Source of the DNA: a virus
Length of the DNA: 38,491 bases
Virus record (IMG/VR): IMGVR_UViG_3300037493_000784
Location: 1-38,491 of that record
Direction: 5' to 3' (one strand)
In this document: piece after piece, positions 14,110-24,112 of the stretch
Layout of the letters: each line of letters opens with the position of its first letter
Numbering within the stretch: position 1 is the stretch's first letter
Notes under the pieces: generated by a model
Told to the model about the DNA's origin: nothing
Seen by the model: only the letters and a program-made list of their open reading frames with translations
The model's database searches: none
Position numbers and translations under genes: made by a program

Positions 14110-14624
14110 TGGATTGGCTGGCTACCCTCAAGTCAGTGGCCCCAACGGTTGCCGCAGCCCTGTTCGGGCCTCTCGGTGCAGTCGCCGTGGCATCTGTTGG
14201 GGAATTGTTGGGGTTATCTAGCGCCACCAAGGACAAGATCAGCGAGATTATCCAAGCAGGCCAAATGACACCTGACCAAATCGGCAAGCTGAAAGAACTC
14301 GAACTGGAGTACCAGAACAATGAGAAAGAACGTGGGTTTAAGTACGCTGAACTCAGCTTCAAAGACCGTGACTCAGCACGCACAGCCAACGTGTCAGGAG
14401 GTACTCAGAAGCCCTTGTTCTGGTTAAGCCTGCTACTGCTATCCATCACCCTTGGCACAGAGTGTATGGTGCTGTTTAAGGGTTATCCCGAGGGTACTGA
14501 CCCATTGGTTGTGGGTCGTGTACTGGGGTTGATGGATGCCGTTGCCATGCTCGTCCTTAGTTACTGGTACGGCACGACAAACGGATCGGCTATCAAGAAC
14601 GAACTACTCGTTGCGAAGACCTGA
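14109..14624 (+). CDS. Holin, three-TM type (GTA_holin_3TM-like)
   Basis: A 171-residue membrane protein. ATG 14109 overlaps the lysozyme stop (TAATG), and GGAG at 14094-14097 precedes it. Hydrophobic segments are at about 9-33 (Ala/Gly-rich), 102-123 (LFWLSLLLLSITLGTE) and 134-155 (GLMDAVAMLVLSYWYG). They are separated by a long charged helix (40-90) containing FKDRDSAR, which is typical of this holin family described from gene transfer agents and many phages. It would open the inner membrane for the lysozyme. Its last 21 bases overlap the convergent leftward gene. No spanin pair was recognised. Confidence 0.75.
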   Translation: MDWLATLKSVAPTVAAALFGPLGAVAVASVGELLGLSSATKDKISEIIQAGQMTPDQIGKLKELELEYQNNEKERGFKYAELSFKDRDSARTANVSGGTQKPLFWLSLLLLSITLGTECMVLFKGYPEGTDPLVVGRVLGLMDAVAMLVLSYWYGTTNGSAIKNELLVAKT

Positions 14625-14900
14625 CCGGGCTTCCAAGCACTCAATCAGCTTGTCGAGGTAGTGGCGTGCTTTCTGCACATCCTTGAGTCCATCCTTGTCC
14701 TTGTACCGGGCAATGTACTTGATGACGTTGCCCCGCAGGAAGCCTTCAAACTGTTCTGGACTCATCCATGACTCCATTGCATCCCAAGGCTGCACCTTCT
14801 TGCTTTTGTAGTGCTCACCGCCAACTTGGTAGCTACTGGCTAGGGGTTTATCCAGCGTCGAGGGGGAGTTTACTGGGTAGCGGATAATTTCTTCACTCAT
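14604..14900 (-). CDS. DUF3310 family protein
   Basis: A 98-residue protein. After a short N-terminal tail it has HYKSKKVQPWDAMESW (residues 31-46), FLRGNVIKYIARYKDKDG (55-72) and AR-HYLDKLIE near the end. This is the DUF3310 (SaV-like) domain common in phages and sometimes loosely called a nucleotide kinase; no P-loop is present, so that name is not supported. AAGGA lies 7 bases before the start. It is the last gene of the long leftward operon, and its 3' end overlaps the convergent holin gene by 21 bp. The molecular function is unknown. Confidence 0.88.
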   Translation of the reverse strand: MSEEIIRYPVNSPSTLDKPLASSYQVGGEHYKSKKVQPWDAMESWMSPEQFEGFLRGNVIKYIARYKDKDGLKDVQKARHYLDKLIECLEARSGLRNE

Positions 14901-15367
14901 GTTGGTTCCTTGGTTAATTGAATATCATGTGAACGGGGTTTCCCATTCAGTATTTTGTGTAGCCGTTTTTCCGTCAGACGGTGGCAGTGGATCATGGTTC
15001 TGGCTGGCAGCGACTCCAGCACCATTGCATAGTCTTCCAAAATAGCCCGCACCGCTTGAATTCCAGCGCCATCCAATCGGATAGGCTTACCTGCAAAGCT
15101 ACGCTGTCCAGCCTCTGCCAAGGCTCTCATGGCATCAAACAGCAAGTTGTTGGTATCCTCTACCCGTCCACCTTCAATTAGCGTTTCCATCAGGTTTACG
15201 GCATCCGAGCACACTGCCCAATCATCCCGTGTCGGCTCGTCTGAAGTCTCCAGTGCAGATAGACCGCTCCACATCCTTGTAAGCTGATGTCTGCGTTGCT
15301 TCTCATTCATGGGTTCTGTGGGGCTGGCAAGCATAGCGTCCAACATGGTGTACGTTTCTTTTTTCAT
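14897..15367 (-). CDS. Conserved phage protein of unknown function
   Basis: A 156-residue, mostly helical, soluble protein. A recognisable block at residues 30-75 (RMWSGLSALETSDEPTRDDW, then DAVNLMETLIEGG) resembles hypothetical proteins of other proteobacterial phages. The C-terminus has HCHRLTEKRLHKIL, a basic segment. It is joined to its neighbours by 4-bp ATGA overlaps on both sides. No enzymatic motif or membrane segment is seen, and no function is proposed. Confidence 0.72.
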   Translation of the reverse strand: MKKETYTMLDAMLASPTEPMNEKQRRHQLTRMWSGLSALETSDEPTRDDWAVCSDAVNLMETLIEGGRVEDTNNLLFDAMRALAEAGQRSFAGKPIRLDGAGIQAVRAILEDYAMVLESLPARTMIHCHRLTEKRLHKILNGKPRSHDIQLTKEPT

Positions 15368-15570
15368 GGCTTCTTAAATGTTGGTAAGGGAAACCAGTGG
15401 TCGAAGAACTTGTCGTCTTTGCTGCACTGTCCTCTTTGGGCGACGCCTGAGCGCTTGTTAATCAACCACATACTTACCCCTCGTGGGGTGTTCGCATCAA
15501 TCGGTATCCAGTGGCAGTCGGGTGCCACCGCAGCAGCGCCATCGGCTGTAATCTTGTGTTCAGTTGTCAT
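15364..15570 (-). CDS. Small phage protein, WxPID...TPRG type
   Basis: A 68-residue protein with DCHWIPIDANTPRGVSMWLIN (residues 18-38) followed by GVAQRG. This pattern recurs in small early proteins of many phages, where Trp, Pro and the TPxG turn introduce a short beta sheet. It ends HWFPLPTF. It is coupled by ATGA overlaps to both neighbours. Function unknown. Confidence 0.68.
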   Translation of the reverse strand: MTTEHKITADGAAAVAPDCHWIPIDANTPRGVSMWLINKRSGVAQRGQCSKDDKFFDHWFPLPTFKKP

Positions 15571-15821
15571 GTCTCGTCCTTTACGTCACCCCAGTCACCT
15601 ATAAGCGCACCGTACGGCATCACATCCACCTCTCTTCTAATTTGGGCTATGGTGTGGTTTCGCCCCATCCGGTACGCATTTTCAATTGCTTTCTGAACAT
15701 CCTCAGTCCAATGCTTCTCGGGTATGCTCCAAACGTTCCAGCCGTTGATGTACGGGGCAACCACCTTCTTGCCACTATCGCCCTTGCGTCTCACAACGCT
15801 TAGTTTTACTTCAAAGTTCAT
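15567..15821 (-). CDS. Small hypothetical protein
   Basis: An 84-residue protein. The N-terminal half is beta-rich and basic (VKLSVVRRKGDSGKKVV), and the C-terminal half is helical (WTEDVQKAIENAYRMGRNHTIAQIRREVD, residues 38-66). No known motif was recognised. It is coupled by ATGA overlaps to the CxxC gene upstream and to the next gene downstream. Confidence 0.62.
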   Translation of the reverse strand: MNFEVKLSVVRRKGDSGKKVVAPYINGWNVWSIPEKHWTEDVQKAIENAYRMGRNHTIAQIRREVDVMPYGALIGDWGDVKDET

Positions 15822-15988
15822 AATATTTTGTTCCCGTAGTCATCGAATGTTCGTGGTGGTGTGCAAGTGTGGATGCTTGACACAAGCCCAAGGCGCTTAC
15901 CGCAGCGTTGGCAGAAATTGCGTTCAAACAAATGCGGGAAACGCTCATGGCACATCTCCAGTAGCTGCTTGTCTGTAATTACTTTCAT
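15818..15988 (-). CDS. Small CxxC zinc-finger-like protein
   Basis: A 56-residue protein. It has an N-terminal helix (ITDKQLLEMCHERFPHLF) followed by C26-Q-R-C29-G-K and, twelve residues later, H40-T-C42. These could form one compact zinc site. A strong AGGAAAG ribosome site precedes the ATG at 15988. Both ends overlap neighbours by 4 bp in the ATGA form, which is good evidence that it is translated. It may be a small zinc-ribbon regulator; no target is known. Confidence 0.7.
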   Translation of the reverse strand: MKVITDKQLLEMCHERFPHLFERNFCQRCGKRLGLVSSIHTCTPPRTFDDYGNKIL

Positions 15989-16092
15989 TTAACTTTCCTG
16001 TTATGTGCTCGCATAAACACGTTGCGAAACCACAGATTAGCGTTGGGAAATGTCCAGCACCAGAACTGCTTACGAAATTTACGTTGTTTCAT
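15985..16092 (-). CDS. 35-residue basic aromatic peptide
   Basis: A 35-codon frame starting MKQRKFRKQFWCWTFPNA. It is rich in Lys/Arg and aromatic residues (five Phe, three Trp). A near-perfect GGAGAGGAA ribosome site lies just upstream of the ATG at 16092. It has ATGA overlaps with the gene before and the gene after. Those three facts make it a likely real gene despite its size. Function unknown; the composition suggests nucleic-acid or membrane binding. Confidence 0.55.
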   Translation of the reverse strand: MKQRKFRKQFWCWTFPNANLWFRNVFMRAHNRKVK

Positions 16093-16334
16093 GAGTTCCT
16101 CTCCTTCAGCTTGGCTTCAATGGCTTGAAAAAAATCAAACGGCGTGTGGTCTTCCCAGAAGTCACCGTTTTTCTCAATCTCGTTTACCTCTACAAGTGTC
16201 AACCCAACCCACTCGCGCTTTGGTCGAATAGTGACGCTGGTGATTTCATGTGTGCCCTGCACCAGCGCGGCCACGTACTTGGCAATCTGCTCTGGCACTT
16301 GCGCCAGCTTCAGTGCTTCATGTTCTCTAGTCAT
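16089..16334 (-). CDS. REWVGLT-repeat family protein, copy 1
   Basis: An 81-residue protein beginning MTREHEALKLAQ, with KREWVGLTLVEVNEIE in the middle and AIEAKLKERNS at the end. All three blocks recur in the genes at 16327-16713 and 16900-17154, so this is one member of a tandem paralogue set. In this copy the Asp-Glu after GLT has become Leu-Val and the ending is diverged. It overlaps the next upstream gene by 8 bp. Function unknown. Proteins with the REWVGLTDE motif are common in uncharacterised proteobacterial phages. Confidence 0.7.
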   Translation of the reverse strand: MTREHEALKLAQVPEQIAKYVAALVQGTHEITSVTIRPKREWVGLTLVEVNEIEKNGDFWEDHTPFDFFQAIEAKLKERNS

Positions 16335-16713
16335 GATTTAGTTCCTTCAGTTTGGCTTCGATGGCTCGGGCTACCAGTAAATCTCGCCGCCCTACTGCCC
16401 CCGCACTTGTGACCCACTCATCCGTAAGCCCAACCCACTCTTTGCGCTTTGGTGAGGTGGTGTAGAGAGCAGTCCAACCCATCGCAACGTCATTTACTGG
16501 TGGGGATAGTCTCATGCGCCAACCGCTGCCATCGGGGGTGACCCACAACACAGGCTCCTGCTCTGGCTGTGCCAAGGCTTCTTGGATTGCGGTGGTGGCG
16601 GCTTGGGCAATAACATTACCTATGCTGTTTCCATAGGTGTCCCCATTACCTAACTTTGCCAATTTTTCCAGCGCCACAAGCGCCATGAGCAGTGCTTCAC
16701 GTTCTTTAGTCAT
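16327..16713 (-). CDS. REWVGLT-repeat family protein, copy 2
   Basis: A 128-residue protein, the longest of the tandem set. It begins MTKEREALLMALVALEKLA. An extra central segment (residues 50-85, with EPVLWVTPDGSGWRMRLSPP) is absent from the other copies. It then has RKEWVGLTDEWV and ends ARAIEAKLKELNHD. The last six residues (KELNHD) are identical to the end of the neighbouring gene at 16706-16903, which points to recombination at gene ends. It overlaps both neighbours by 8 bp. Confidence 0.72.
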   Translation of the reverse strand: MTKEREALLMALVALEKLAKLGNGDTYGNSIGNVIAQAATTAIQEALAQPEQEPVLWVTPDGSGWRMRLSPPVNDVAMGWTALYTTSPKRKEWVGLTDEWVTSAGAVGRRDLLVARAIEAKLKELNHD

Positions 16714-16903
16714 GATTGAGTTCCTTTAGTTTTTGTAACTGGTGAAATTGCTTTGCTCGATACCTTGCAATCAGCATCTCAAAACCAGAACCGTAAAACC
16801 CCAAGGAACACACAGTAACAAGCCCGTCAGCGAGTTCAGCAAAACCTTGAATAAATCCAATTGCGTGACATTTCAAAGTTGGGTGTTTCCATCGGTAAAT
16901 CAT
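16706..16903 (-). CDS. Small mosaic protein sharing the KELNHD tail
   Basis: A 65-residue protein starting at ATG 16903, which overlaps the upstream stop as ATGA and has AAGGAG 8 bases before it. A longer frame to 16993 would lie inside the upstream gene. The body (YRWKHPTLKCHAIGFIQGF, then LVTVCSLGFYGSG) is unlike the paralogues around it. Its last ten residues, LQKLKELNHD, copy the tail of the REWVGLT family. It appears to be an unrelated core placed between duplicated gene boundaries. Confidence 0.62.
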   Translation of the reverse strand: MIYRWKHPTLKCHAIGFIQGFAELADGLVTVCSLGFYGSGFEMLIARYRAKQFHQLQKLKELNHD

Positions 16904-17154
16904 GTGTTCAACTCCTTCAGTTTGGCTTTGATGGCTCGGGCATATGCAATGTGACGCGACCAGTTGGGTATCGCACCAGAGGCAACATCCCATATTTTCT
17001 GTATCTGCTCATCCGTCAGCCCAACCCACTCGCGCTCTGGCTGTGCCAATTCGTGCCTCACGATATTAAAGATTTTGGCTAGTATCATCGAGTGAGTGTT
17101 GGGCGTGTTTATTGCCTCAAGAATCAACGTCAGTGCTTCACGTTCTTTAGTCAT
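16900..17154 (-). CDS. REWVGLT-repeat family protein, copy 3
   Basis: An 84-residue protein. It begins MTKEREALTLILEAIN, has EREWVGLTDEQIQKIW at residues 41-56 and ends ARAIKAKLKELNT. It is the most regular member of the tandem set, and its ends match copies 1 and 2 closely. It is soluble and mostly helical. It is coupled by ATGA overlaps to the genes on both sides. Function unknown. Confidence 0.72.
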   Translation of the reverse strand: MTKEREALTLILEAINTPNTHSMILAKIFNIVRHELAQPEREWVGLTDEQIQKIWDVASGAIPNWSRHIAYARAIKAKLKELNT

Positions 17155-17438
17155 GCGTTTTTCTCCTGTGCCAATGCTGCTCTTGTCTGCTTTGTAATTC
17201 GCTCCGCATCTTCTGCAAGTGTCTTTGCTTTGATTGGGCTATAGGGGCTTTTGTGGCTGCACTTTGGGCAGACCAGCCATTCTGTAAGCGGCTCTTGTTC
17301 TGGGAAAACACACGCCTTGGCACACTCTGCAATAATCAACTCAGCAAACTTTTCTGCGGCTTCGTGTGCGTTGCCCCCTCGACTGCTTGGGCCTAAAAGT
17401 CCAGCTTGTTCAGCAAGTTCTTGTATTCGTTGGTTCAT
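17151..17438 (-). CDS. Small phage protein with CPKC motif
   Basis: A 95-residue protein. The N-terminal helix (NQRIQELAEQAGLLG) and the segment EKFAELIIAECAKACVFPEQEP are common in small early proteins of related phages. Residues 56-63 hold WLVCPKCS, a half zinc site with only one CxxC, so any zinc binding would need a partner or the Cys residues at about 39 and 43. It ends in a charged helix. It is coupled by 4-bp overlaps to both neighbours. Function unknown. Confidence 0.7.
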   Translation of the reverse strand: MNQRIQELAEQAGLLGPSSRGGNAHEAAEKFAELIIAECAKACVFPEQEPLTEWLVCPKCSHKSPYSPIKAKTLAEDAERITKQTRAALAQEKNA

Positions 17439-17716
17439 GAGATCACCTCTGCTGATTTAAGTTTGCCTGTCTCGCCATCGAATGTGAGTTTGAGGTTGTC
17501 GTTACGCATGAGCTCGCAATCCCAAACCAGCGGCCAAGCAAGGCCGTACCTCACAACATCAGGCTTAGGCTCTGGCTTGATTCGGTATTCCCCGTCGTTA
17601 TCCCATAACAGGGTTGATGTGGAGCACCATATGTCCGTTTTGAAGTACTTGTGTTCAATCTCAGCGCCATCGGCCCAAGCCTTGATTAATTCTGCGTGTT
17701 TGTGTGGTGTTTTCAT
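17435..17716 (-). CDS. Small phage protein, HAELIKAWADGAEI type
   Basis: A 93-residue protein. It begins MKTPHKHAELIKAWADGAEI, with a central LLWDNDGEYRIKPEPKPD. This two-part pattern (helix, aromatic beta hairpin, RIKPEP) recurs in many phage early regions, and the proteins are uncharacterised. It ends in a short beta strand pair. It is coupled by ATGA overlaps to the genes on both sides. Confidence 0.75.
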   Translation of the reverse strand: MKTPHKHAELIKAWADGAEIEHKYFKTDIWCSTSTLLWDNDGEYRIKPEPKPDVVRYGLAWPLVWDCELMRNDNLKLTFDGETGKLKSAEVIS

Positions 17717-17811: not shown

Positions 17812-17984
17812 TTCTTTATCCCCGTCCAAGCGGTGCGCGGCTCATTTGAGTGTTTGATGTAGAAGTGAATCAAATAGTTGAAGATTTGGATGTAACTCAT
17901 TTTGATGCCAGTGTGCTTGGCTAAAGTTTCGCGTATCAAGTCAACATCTTGGTTCACGCTTACGGTAATGCGTTTTGTGGTCAT
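17808..17984 (-). CDS. Small ribbon-helix-helix-like protein
   Basis: A 58-residue protein. A basic beta strand (TKRITVSV, residues 3-10) is followed by helix DVDLIRETLAKHT (13-25), a Gly turn and helix SYIQIFNYLIHFYIK (30-44). This is the order and spacing of a ribbon-helix-helix DNA-binding dimer such as Arc. It has ATGA overlaps with both neighbours. It could be a transcription regulator of the early genes. A second RHH-like protein opens this operon at 24792. Confidence 0.6.
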   Translation of the reverse strand: MTTKRITVSVNQDVDLIRETLAKHTGIKMSYIQIFNYLIHFYIKHSNEPRTAWTGIKK

Positions 17985-18277
17985 ACCGAGAAACCCAATG
18001 ACTTCATTTTTAAATGATCGTCTGCACCCGGACGTATCTGCTGGAATACCTCACCGTCACCAGTACGATAAGTGGTGCGATCCCAGATATTAGATTTGTT
18101 AGGCAGCGCTTGACCGGGTAATTTAGGCATCAATACAGCGCCACCACTTACATATCGTTTGGGGTTCTTGTCGGACAATGGCGGCAGCACATGGCTCAGG
18201 CTCTGACGATTTTCACGCAGCACGGTACGGGTGCGTTCAGCAACAGTGCGGATAGTTTTGTCAACGGGTTTGGTCAT
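17981..18277 (-). CDS. Conserved phage protein of unknown function
   Basis: A 98-residue protein. The N-terminal helix is basic (TIRTVAERTRTVLRENRQ). The C-terminal part contains YVSGGAVLMPKLPGQALP (residues 42-59) and WDRTTYRTGDGEV, a Gly/Pro-rich beta region. The pattern looks conserved, but I cannot name the family. It has ATGA overlaps with the genes on both sides. Confidence 0.62.
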   Translation of the reverse strand: MTKPVDKTIRTVAERTRTVLRENRQSLSHVLPPLSDKNPKRYVSGGAVLMPKLPGQALPNKSNIWDRTTYRTGDGEVFQQIRPGADDHLKMKSLGFSV

Positions 18278-18465
18278 TTTGTTTCCCCGATATGCAGATA
18301 AGCCGTGAGGCGCTTGATGCGGTCATTGTGGTACTCAGCCATACGCTTCGAGTATTCTTGGCTTGTCTGGGCTTCTAGCAGGCTACGTTCAGCTTGTTCT
18401 AGTTCCCTCAAGGCCAACACTTTAGCACTTGGTGCTCTGAATATTTCAATCAATTTATCAAACAT
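18274..18465 (-). CDS. Small coiled-coil protein
   Basis: A 63-residue protein that is almost entirely one charged helix: REL-EQAERSLLEAQTSQEYSKRMAEYHNDRIKRL (residues 20-54). It begins MFDKLIEIFRAPSAKV. Similar short coiled-coil proteins occur in other phage early regions without known function. It starts 35 bp after the helicase stop and opens the run of coupled small genes, with a 4-bp overlap to the next. Confidence 0.68.
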   Translation of the reverse strand: MFDKLIEIFRAPSAKVLALRELEQAERSLLEAQTSQEYSKRMAEYHNDRIKRLTAYLHIGETK

Positions 18466-22127: not shown

Positions 22128-22772
22128 TTACGCCAAGAACGATGGCAGACCCGGCATGGCGGCAGCTACTGGAGCAAATGGATTCGCACCACCAACAGAG
22201 CCAAACATACTTGACGCATCGGTAGCACCTTCACCGAATGCAGTATCGTCACCAGCAAACTGGAGAGCAACCAAATCGCAACGAATACCGTTACCATGCT
22301 TGTTCACTTGGAGCCAAGGCTTCACGGCAGCGTTGACACGGCATCCACCGTACATCTTGCGAGTTAGGTTCTGGTACGCCATAGTGTTGTTCGGGTCAAT
22401 GGCTTGACCATTGGCTTCAATGATCTGGGGCTGTGACTCACGACCTGTGGTGACATACACGTTGCCAGCATAGCCATCGTAAGGCTTGAATGTTTTCTTG
22501 TTAACCTTTTCCTCACCAACACCAAAGCAACGCAGCTTACGATCAGCTTGGATCATGCCCATCACGGTGCTGGTGTGCTCAAGCCACTTAGCCAAGGCCA
22601 TAGCACCGTAACGCTGCATGAACTGAGCGAAGCCGGGGTGATCTGCTGGCATCAACAGTTCACAGTTGTAACTGATGCGTTCCTTACCAGTGACCTCGTT
22701 AACCTGACGTTGAGGTTCAGCGATGTGAGGGAAGGACAAACGGACATTTGATAAAAAGATAATATCTGACAT
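22128..22772 (-). CDS. DUF2815 single-stranded DNA-binding protein
   Basis: A 214-residue protein. It begins IIFLSNVRLSFPHIAEPQ and contains YDGYAGNVYVTTGRESQP (about residues 99-116), then KMYGGCRVNAAVKPWLQ. These are features of the DUF2815 family, regarded as phage ssDNA-binding (OB-fold) proteins and usually encoded next to DUF2800 and DNA polymerase genes. The acidic and hydrophobic flexible tail (from about 180, with GGANPFAPVAAAMPGLPSFL) resembles SSB tails that recruit partners. It would coat single strands during replication. Confidence 0.87.
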   Translation of the reverse strand: MSDIIFLSNVRLSFPHIAEPQRQVNEVTGKERISYNCELLMPADHPGFAQFMQRYGAMALAKWLEHTSTVMGMIQADRKLRCFGVGEEKVNKKTFKPYDGYAGNVYVTTGRESQPQIIEANGQAIDPNNTMAYQNLTRKMYGGCRVNAAVKPWLQVNKHGNGIRCDLVALQFAGDDTAFGEGATDASSMFGSVGGANPFAPVAAAMPGLPSFLA

Positions 22773-22789: not shown

Positions 22790-24112
22790 TTACAGTAACC
22801 ATGCTGGCAGTGTTTCCACTGCTGGCGCTTCTACCGCACTGAATAAAGGTGCGGCATTCAAGACCACGGCAACCCGTGAGTCTGATTCGGGAACAACGGT
22901 CAAAGAGCCAGCCAACTTGGTGACGTACTCAGTTTCCATTGTTTTCAATTGACGGGGTGACAGTTGCTTGACAACCTGCTCACCTGCAACAGTCTTTGTC
23001 CATGTCAGGTTCTCAGCCTTAGCTGGACTGACCAACTTTGTCTCATACACATTGCCCTTGGGGACACCCATCTTGATTAGCTTCTGTGCGATCTCATCCT
23101 CAGTCAATGACCAAGCACGGGAGCCACGACCATTCACCAACTTCAGACCGGGTACAGACTGACCAGCTTTCATACGGCGCAGTGCTTCCTTCTCGACAGC
23201 TTCAAGCAACTGGCGCATCAGGGGGGCAGCTTCCATGATCTGGGTAAGCTGTGCATTGTCCATTGTGGTGGGGTCTTTGTCGGCTGACTGTTGCGCGACA
23301 TCTAGCACTTGAGGTTGTGCGACTGGTTGAAACATGATACCGATCTCCTTCATTACATTACCTGCCAGCGCGGTACAAGAACCTTTAGCGCGGCAGAATT
23401 TACATTGACTTTCACCCGGTACGAGTGGGGCATCTATGGCATCGGTAGCTGCTGCTTCCTTTACCATTTGACCTATCTTACCAAGAATATCGTCAGTGCT
23501 GACCTCGTGTGATGAAATAGTTGGAAGATTTCTTGTTGCCAGTTTTGGCTGGATGATCGTCATCCGAATACGCTTGATGGGATAGGCGGCATTCACAGGC
23601 AGTTTAAAGCCAGCCAGCACACCCATTGCATACTGCTCAAGCTGATCGTTGTCTTTCGCGCTTACGATGCCCATACCGTCTTTGTAGTCGATCAGTTCAA
23701 GCAAGTCACCACCAATAATCTGAACGTCCACTGTGCCGCCCATGTCATCACGGCCCAACAGGTAGGCAGGCTCGACACGGCACTCAGTCAACACCTTCAG
23801 GTTCAAGTGACCTTCCTTGACCAAGGCTGTGGTTTGCTCACTGATGTAATCCAGTGCAATCTGTACACGGGCAGCACGGGCAGCATCTACAGTGAACTCC
23901 CCCTCGTGGTCTTTCATGGTCTGACCAATCAACACCGAAGCGTAGATTGAGCCAGTCTTCAGGCACTTCTCCAGCAACGAGTGGGTGTGCGTACCATCGG
24001 CAGCGGCAGGGCCAGAACCCTCATCGGGGAACTTGGCTTGTTCCCGGATGGAACCGGGGCAGCGTTTCCACTGCCCCCGCTTGCTCGGGGAAAGAGTAGC
24101 GTGGGCAGTCAT
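22790..24112 (-). CDS. DUF2800 RecB/Cas4-like nuclease
   Basis: A 440-residue protein of the PD-(D/E)xK superfamily. Nuclease residues are D129 (GGTVDVQ) and D142-Y-K144 (LIDYKDG), followed by DNDQLEQYA, the usual QxxxY element. One Cys near the start (C18, RCPGS) and three later (C237-x2-C240-x5-C246) reproduce the arrangement that holds a 4Fe-4S cluster in Cas4 and AddB. The C-terminal third is helical. It is encoded beside the ssDNA-binding protein and probably processes DNA ends in replication or recombination. Iron-sulfur binding is inferred from Cys spacing. Confidence 0.88.
   Translation of the reverse strand: MTAHATLSPSKRGQWKRCPGSIREQAKFPDEGSGPAAADGTHTHSLLEKCLKTGSIYASVLIGQTMKDHEGEFTVDAARAARVQIALDYISEQTTALVKEGHLNLKVLTECRVEPAYLLGRDDMGGTVDVQIIGGDLLELIDYKDGMGIVSAKDNDQLEQYAMGVLAGFKLPVNAAYPIKRIRMTIIQPKLATRNLPTISSHEVSTDDILGKIGQMVKEAAATDAIDAPLVPGESQCKFCRAKGSCTALAGNVMKEIGIMFQPVAQPQVLDVAQQSADKDPTTMDNAQLTQIMEAAPLMRQLLEAVEKEALRRMKAGQSVPGLKLVNGRGSRAWSLTEDEIAQKLIKMGVPKGNVYETKLVSPAKAENLTWTKTVAGEQVVKQLSPRQLKTMETEYVTKLAGSLTVVPESDSRVAVVLNAAPLFSAVEAPAVETLPAWLL

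Follow-up and report, generated by a model that had tools for sequence, protein, structure and literature searches.

Between an SNF2 helicase gene on one side and a DUF3310 gene on the other, a freshwater phage (IMG/VR virus record IMGVR_UViG_3300037493_000784) carries an operon of small genes on the minus strand whose ends recur from gene to gene. The locus raises the question of whether these common ends are kept as parts of proteins, as expression signals or as DNA at which genes are exchanged. The window analysed here is the whole record of 38,491 bases, and related loci are referred to by L numbers. The window encodes a P22-like portal (E = 3e-176), and its other matches include a P22-like coat protein, the SNF2 helicase and a primase-polymerase. 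An Enc34-type ssDNA-binding protein (22128-22772) and a DUF2800 PD-(D/E)XK protein (22790-24112) are encoded next to each other and are a candidate phage recombination pair. Judged solely from the titles of metagenome-assembled genomes (MAGs), the hosts are inferred to be freshwater betaproteobacteria. Our reading, which we hold with good confidence from sequence comparison, is that the region is a hypervariable operon of coupled small accessory genes assembled from interchangeable DNA modules, in which a short repeated element, the joint, would act both as ribosome site and as short homology for exchange.

Organization of the variable region

The original prediction described a tandem set of paralogues within 16089-17154. 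The protein features on which it was based are present: a common MTKEREAL-like start, a (K/R)EWVGLT core and an AKLKEL/R end occur in three of the four genes (16089-16334, 16327-16713 and 16900-17154), and the fourth gene (16706-16903) is built around an unrelated core and has only the tail (QKLKELNHD) in common with them. The repeat set is also real at the DNA level, but the proposed interval was too narrow, since the set extends to 17151-17438, 15985-16092 and 15818-15988 (Table 1). The four genes overlap end to start. An alternative ORF reading of 16706-16993 was dropped, and the ATGA at 16903 is taken as the start of this gene. Over-long ORF calls that begin with ...RSQT.GEEHM correspond to the joint read in another frame and are seen for 16706-16993 in the window and in L023, L079, L096 and L331; starts are probably misplaced where these phages have been annotated automatically.

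Table 1. Features of the variable region, its joints, exchange blocks and flanks (window coordinates)
Feature	Position	Strand	Description	Basis or comparison
Fixed upstream flank	17981-18465	-	Genes 18274-18465 and 17981-18277	Order conserved among relatives
Chimeric small gene	17151-17438	-	95 aa; N2 module MNQRIQELAEQAG..ECAKAC, Cys-containing core EPLTEWLVCPKCSHKSPYSPIKAKTLAEDAERITKQTRAALAQ, variant joint tail QEKNA	
Exchange block A	17309-17438	-		92% to L139, there joined to block C
Exchange block B	17143-17294	-	End inside start of next gene	95% to L139, other gene there
Joint 1 (variant)	17152-17168	-	CAGGAGAAAAACGCATG; ribosome site and ATG for gene 16900-17154	Pattern match
Small gene	16900-17154	-	84 aa; N1 start MTKEREAL, EWVGLTDEQI module, tail AKLKELNT	
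Joint 2	16901-16923	-	AAACTGAAGGAGTTGAACACATG; starts gene 16706-16903	Pattern match
Gene with unrelated core	16706-16903	-	65 aa; without W module, end QKLKELNHD, joints on both sides	
Joint 3	16711-16732	-	AAACTAAAGGAACTCAATCATG, continuing into ATGACTAAAGAACGTGAAGCACTG (MTKEREAL)	Pattern match and DNA alignment
Small gene	16327-16713	-	128 aa; N1, EPVLW..ALYTTSP core, KEWVGLTDE..AIEAKLKELNHD	
Exchange block C	16301-16438	-	W-tail module, joint and next start	95% to L139
Joint 4	16332-16353	-	AAACTGAAGGAACTAAATCATG; starts gene 16089-16334	Pattern match
Small gene	16089-16334	-	81 aa; MTREHEAL start, REWVGLT, tail EAKLKERNS	
Joint 5	16090-16112	-	AAGCTGAAGGAGAGGAACTCATG; starts 35-aa ORF 15985-16092	Pattern match
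ORF after joint 5	15985-16092	-	35 aa; ATGA overlap with next start	
Last variable gene	15818-15988	-	56 aa; zinc-ribbon-like module NFCQRCGKR..IHTCTPP, second exchangeable tail RTFDDYGNKIL	
Fixed downstream flank	14604-15570	-	Genes 15364-15570 and 14897-15367, DUF3310 gene 14604-14900	

A pattern search of the window located five copies of the joint (17-23 nt, minus strand), all between the genes at 15985-17438, at 17168, 16923, 16732, 16353 and 16112, exactly on gene boundaries; the pattern had no occurrence in 200 shuffles of the window. Repeats inside the window show identities of 91% over 43 nt (joint plus MTKEREAL start), 97% over 29 nt and 100% over 25 nt. The consensus of the ATGA tail junctions of the relatives is GAAGCCAAACTNAAGGAGAAGAACACATGA. 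The joint encodes the common tail IEAKLKEKNT/KELNHD, which is present in 120 distinct proteins of the relatives versus none of 11,929 ORFs from reversed sequence. Positions from about -28 to +3 have a high information content, of which only ∼0.1 bit per base remains right after the ATGA; the sequence behind the joint is therefore arbitrary. No RNA structure or inverted repeat was found for the joint, three joints folding no better than shuffles (z of +0.4 to +1.5).

The joint as ribosome-binding site of the next gene

The tail A-K-L-K-E-x-N is coded GCC AAA CTN AAG GAG AAG AAC ACA TGA, with AAGGAG placed 8 nt ahead of the ATG, which shares bases with the stop codon. At the five window joints AAGGAG or AAGGAA is located 7-8 nt ahead of the ATG of the next gene. 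Stop and start overlap as ATGA or, for ends of the ...KELNHD type, as CATGACTAA; in the KELNHD form (AAGGAACTGAATCATGACTAAAG) the final His and Asp are the start of the next gene in another frame. Since the AAGGAG/AAGGAA lies inside the tail codons before the next ATG, the conserved protein end doubles as the ribosome-binding site of the following gene. On this sequence evidence, the repeated end is the predicted ribosome-binding site and translation-coupling signal of the next gene, a role that had been missed when the repeats were first noticed.

Codon usage was examined in 137 tail genes of relatives that had been found by codon-neutral searches. Lys-Glu is coded as AAGGAG/AAGGAA in 129 of the 137 tails, but in only seven of the 77 Lys-Glu pairs at other places in these genes and in 470 of the 1161 found in long ORFs (Fisher p of ∼1e-38 and 5e-37, respectively). 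In 121 of the 137 the distance to the next ATG is 7-8 nt. A perfect AAGGAG is present at 89 of 110 ATGA tail junctions versus 148 of 1413 other ATGA junctions of the same loci. Loci from L233 onward were fetched via the joint-DNA pattern and were excluded from the tail-codon, ATGA-junction/information and control-gene codon statistics. One codon count that included them was set aside, the unbiased figures being those of the control-gene pair comparison (see below). As the ribosome-binding site of the next gene, the joint has sufficient reason to be conserved without a dedicated role in recombination.

Joints at unrelated genes

In five relatives (L321, L331, L316, L036 and L097) the joint follows an unrelated gene out of frame, which means that the DNA is kept without the peptide. 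In L321 and L331 the gene concerned encodes a DNA N6-adenine methyltransferase (Pfam Dam; for L331, E = 1.7e-25) and is bounded by joints on both sides; it begins behind the first of these joints, and its stop, which is out of frame with the second, lies 7 nt ahead of the Lys codon there. The Dam-type gene is located at 6553-6972 in L331 and on the minus strand of L321 (619-1041 in reverse-complement coordinates), and a similar ORF is present in the same variable interval of L152 (3892-4323). Such a methyltransferase cassette is possibly anti-restriction cargo of the locus. The unrelated genes of L036 (238 aa) and L097 (58 aa) enter the joint in another frame and end in ...SKPN*, the unrelated frame of L316 stops within the joint and a 13-codon ORF of L012 consists of the tail alone (MRAIKAKLKEKNT).

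Three further counts, all of which include the loci from L233 onward, extend these cases. Ten joints have no preceding in-frame ORF of at least 30 aa. Among 270 joints surveyed, 181 are followed by an ORF without the family marks, and the downstream proteins form 118 clusters. Joints are present on both sides of 44 genes, several of which (including 16706-16903 of the window) have no W module, so that an unrelated core with the same tail is a general pattern. In 41 of these 44 genes the joint is in frame with the tail, which indicates that the C-terminal peptide may also be selected.

Exchange of genes and cores among relatives

For the comparison of flanks, relatives were fetched by their flanking genes. 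The upstream flank is kept and usually so are the three genes of the downstream flank (Table 1), and the interval between them is ∼0.6-2.8 kb and differs in gene content across relatives. The comparison that the original prediction called for, namely whether the same ends enclose different cores in relatives, gave a positive result, with the same flanking genes around differing cores. Recurrent elements include two starts (MTKEREALKLALEALE..ALAQPEQEP and MNxRIQELAEQAG..AECAKACEP), the cores EPLTEWLVCPKCSYKSPYSP.., ARIGMIGEEHFADVCRKAGGNS, EPVGHIYTIAGVQHCTIE, SKPCEYCGCDLPVG.. and NFCPRCGKR..HTCCPP, and two tails (EWVGLTDDEI..AKLKEKN and RTFDDYGNKI), which are found in many combinations.

The genes of the window take part in this mosaic. 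The N2 part of 17151-17438 is joined to a different C-half in L139 (= L009), and its core has other starts and tails in L008, L015/L159, L149 and L139. The C-half of 16327-16713 is found under another start in L139/L009 (95% DNA identity), and the module and tail of 15818-15988 occur in other combinations in L140, L145, L151, L157, L159 and L228. The order of blocks A, B and C and the genes that contain them differ in L139, the flanks of which are mostly 73-87% identical to those of the window. The tail RTFDDYGNK(I/L) is seen on different cores (zinc-ribbon-like, EP core or none) in 15818-15988 of the window, L159 (5152-5556), L157 (2681-2950) and L228 (6771-7184). Gene 17435-17716, of the phrog_15048 type (RIKPEPKPDV), corresponds to the N-terminal part of a chimeric protein in L157 (2032-2697) and to a separate gene in L151.

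The decisive comparisons are between two pairs of close relatives. L143 and L144 come from two metagenomes and differ by a 604-nt indel that comprises two whole genes; outside it their identity is 99.7-100%, and the indel junction is the 24-nt repeated gene start ATGACTAAAGATGAAGCACTGAAG. L142 and L145 share 99.8% identity as far as an EP-type linker, beyond which they have different cores, followed by the same W-tail module (88%) and joint, a second different core and a return to 97% identity. The predicted cassette exchange between repeated ends is borne out by this two-gene indel and these two core swaps, in contigs that are metagenomic, as are those of the other relatives, and in which assembly errors could be hidden. 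Change-points between close relatives sit in repeated segments (gene start, EP linker, PP/W segment and tail), and, as read from these junctions, the exchange is inferred to proceed by homologous recombination. Exchange also takes place inside genes, at EP-linker, PP/W and tail-B points, an aspect that had not been foreseen.

Further blocks are shared by L144/L156 (167 nt, 98%), L144/L151 (135 nt, 97%) and L140/L159 (284 nt, 99%) and end at joint, W, PP or tail-B points. Mosaic proteins, with one highly similar segment and an unlike remainder, were found in L139/window, L149/L159/window, L144/L156 and L144/L151. Block ends coincide with module landmarks in 58 of 148 cases versus 37.6 expected, a weak enrichment among ends that are non-independent, which does not serve as a main argument for our reading.

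Synonymous sites were compared in pairs of diverged phages whose control gene (homologues of 14897 or of the DUF3310 gene) has 55-75% amino-acid identity. Where residues agree, the codons are identical as well at a rate of 0.67-0.76 in the tail and 0.61-0.65 in the W module, compared with 0.39-0.44 in the controls. The modules have thus been exchanged after the genomes diverged or are constrained as DNA. Ribosome binding accounts for the AAGGAG part, but not for the W module, for the GAAGCCAAAC stretch or for wobble conservation upstream of the Shine-Dalgarno, and recent exchange by homology would be the simplest explanation for the W module and that stretch.

Proposed mechanism and alternatives

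In the mechanism that we propose, a joint of ∼30 nt closes each gene, encodes the tail (I)EAKLKE(K/L)N and brings AAGGAG/AAGGAA to 7-8 nt before the next ATG. Each joint would start and couple the translation of the following gene and would have been kept for that reason. Its repetition within phages and from one phage to another would also supply homology for exchange, in the form of short repeats of ∼25-50 nt. RecA- or phage-driven homologous or annealing recombination could then insert, delete or swap a gene or core, the Enc34-type ssDNA-binding and DUF2800 proteins being candidates encoded nearby, and every remaining gene would retain a working ribosome site after the exchange.

The joints could instead be strong coupled ribosome sites only, the mosaic arising from illegitimate or relaxed phage recombination and selection for intact genes, with no preferred crossover at the joints. 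The Shine-Dalgarno signal does account for the tail and the landmark enrichment of block ends is weak, but the L143/L144 junction falls exactly within a 24-nt repeat, the gene-start, EP and W segments, which contain no ribosome sites, are also conserved synonymously, and the clearest exchanged blocks end at EP, W, PP or joint points; we regard this explanation as unlikely. Somewhat more doubtful still is a bolder form of our own proposal, according to which the joint is a population-wide standard of freshwater phages, a universal adaptor, such that any gene between two joints would be expressed at once and be exchangeable by homology, and a dedicated phage or host factor would recognize its extra conserved bases.

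Tandem duplication of one ancestral gene, with diverged cores, functional protein ends (start helix, W motif and tail helix) and little exchange, would fit the tandem arrangement, the start, W and tail segments common at the protein level and the N- and C-terminal helices of the structural model (see below). It is nevertheless improbable, since the synonymous sites of the modules are far more conserved than those of control genes in the same phage pairs, blocks occur in differing orders and combinations and, barring assembly errors, it is contradicted by the out-of-frame joints behind unrelated genes, by the L142/L145 differences and by the whole-gene indel of L143/L144 with its ends in a repeat. 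That the joints are integron-like recombinase sites, or are bound by a phage factor for translation or recombination, is very improbable: ∼30 nt are conserved, beyond the Shine-Dalgarno core, and joints flank unrelated genes on both sides, but they have no inverted repeat or stable fold, no dedicated recombinase such as a tyrosine integrase was found among the window proteins scanned (part of the ORFs) and exchange takes place at other repeats too, as homology alone permits.

Comparison with known systems

Nearest in kind to the joint are the Start-Associated Sequences (SAS/ESAS), short conserved repeats that occupy the ribosome site of many genes within one phage and are known from Cluster K mycobacteriophages and Cluster EF Microbacterium phages (PMC3203893, PMC7302621). 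The SAS is 13 bp long (GGGATAGGAGCCC), combines AGGAG-type pairing with extra conserved bases and stands ahead of different gene families; about half of the Cluster K SAS genes also have an inverted repeat (PMC3203893, PMC7302621). Similarly, the joints occupy the ribosome-site position directly before several starts (five in the window and 110 ATGA tail junctions in relatives). The joint consensus has only a purine-rich core in common with GGGATAGGAGCCC and GGGAAAGGACCCC, and an extended inverted repeat was not found at the three joints tested. Unlike the SAS, the joint is ∼30 nt long, encodes the end of the upstream protein and overlaps its stop and the next start. Its setting is an accessory operon, where it marks the places at which genes and cores are exchanged, whereas the papers cited for the SAS do not describe it as forming protein ends that are shuffled.

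Smug et al. (2023; PMC10684548) found fragments shuffled among otherwise different phage proteins and expected more in accessory proteins of unknown function. The segments described here are likewise shuffled between otherwise unlike proteins; their survey concerns mainly core functions via known domains, whereas here unannotated accessory proteins have common ends and linkers at the DNA level. Gene 14 of Corndog is flanked by a 17-bp direct repeat that is present as a single copy in relatives without the gene (PMC4351075). The gain or loss in L143/L144 is similarly bounded by short direct repeats, but Corndog involves one gene and one repeat, in contrast to a repeated joint in many phages and at many genes. 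Termination-reinitiation coupling at ATGA is generic in prokaryotes (PMC6728339); the joints resemble such pairs, as seen here from sequence, in the ATGA overlap and the Shine-Dalgarno site inside the upstream gene, and differ in that one sequence is reused before unrelated genes. Unlike integron cassettes, the three joints analysed show no attC-like folded site, folding being no better than for shuffles.

No description of this joint was found in the open-access literature searched. For cultured phages, the joint was found only in a few lake or spring virome records, in which the genes are hypothetical where annotated. None of 401 genomes from the family to which the MAG with L103 belongs contains the joint pattern, which is thus not a common host feature.

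Predicted properties of the small proteins

The small proteins are presumed to be dispensable early accessory proteins. Searches of Pfam and PADLOC returned no family matching the small genes of the window, and PHROG gave nothing convincing. Gene 15567-15821, at the downstream edge of the variable region, weakly matches the C-terminal domain of NfrA, at an E of 0.0013 that does not reach the Pfam cut-off. One of 85 chimeric relatives contains a Pfam domain, and their PHROG matches are scattered, with at most three members each; this one protein (L033, 7311-8129) has a WDGH domain (PF25311, E = 4e-36) as the core between the common ends. In the AlphaFold model of 16327-16713 (pLDDT 74, pTM 0.41), a helical hairpin and a pair of C-terminal helices seem to accompany a small β core, and the C-terminal peptide encoded by the joint is predicted with modest confidence to be part of a helix. 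A fold search with this model gave no significant match (best E = 0.8).

Implications

The protein motif EAKLKEKN, which would otherwise pass for a conserved functional domain, is explained by the joint, and annotation by these ends does not define a single functional family of proteins. Expression signal and recombination foothold would be the same few codons, so that genes could be added, lost or swapped without breaking the translation of their neighbours. The joint thereby offers a testable mechanism by which phages may keep compact accessory operons evolvable.
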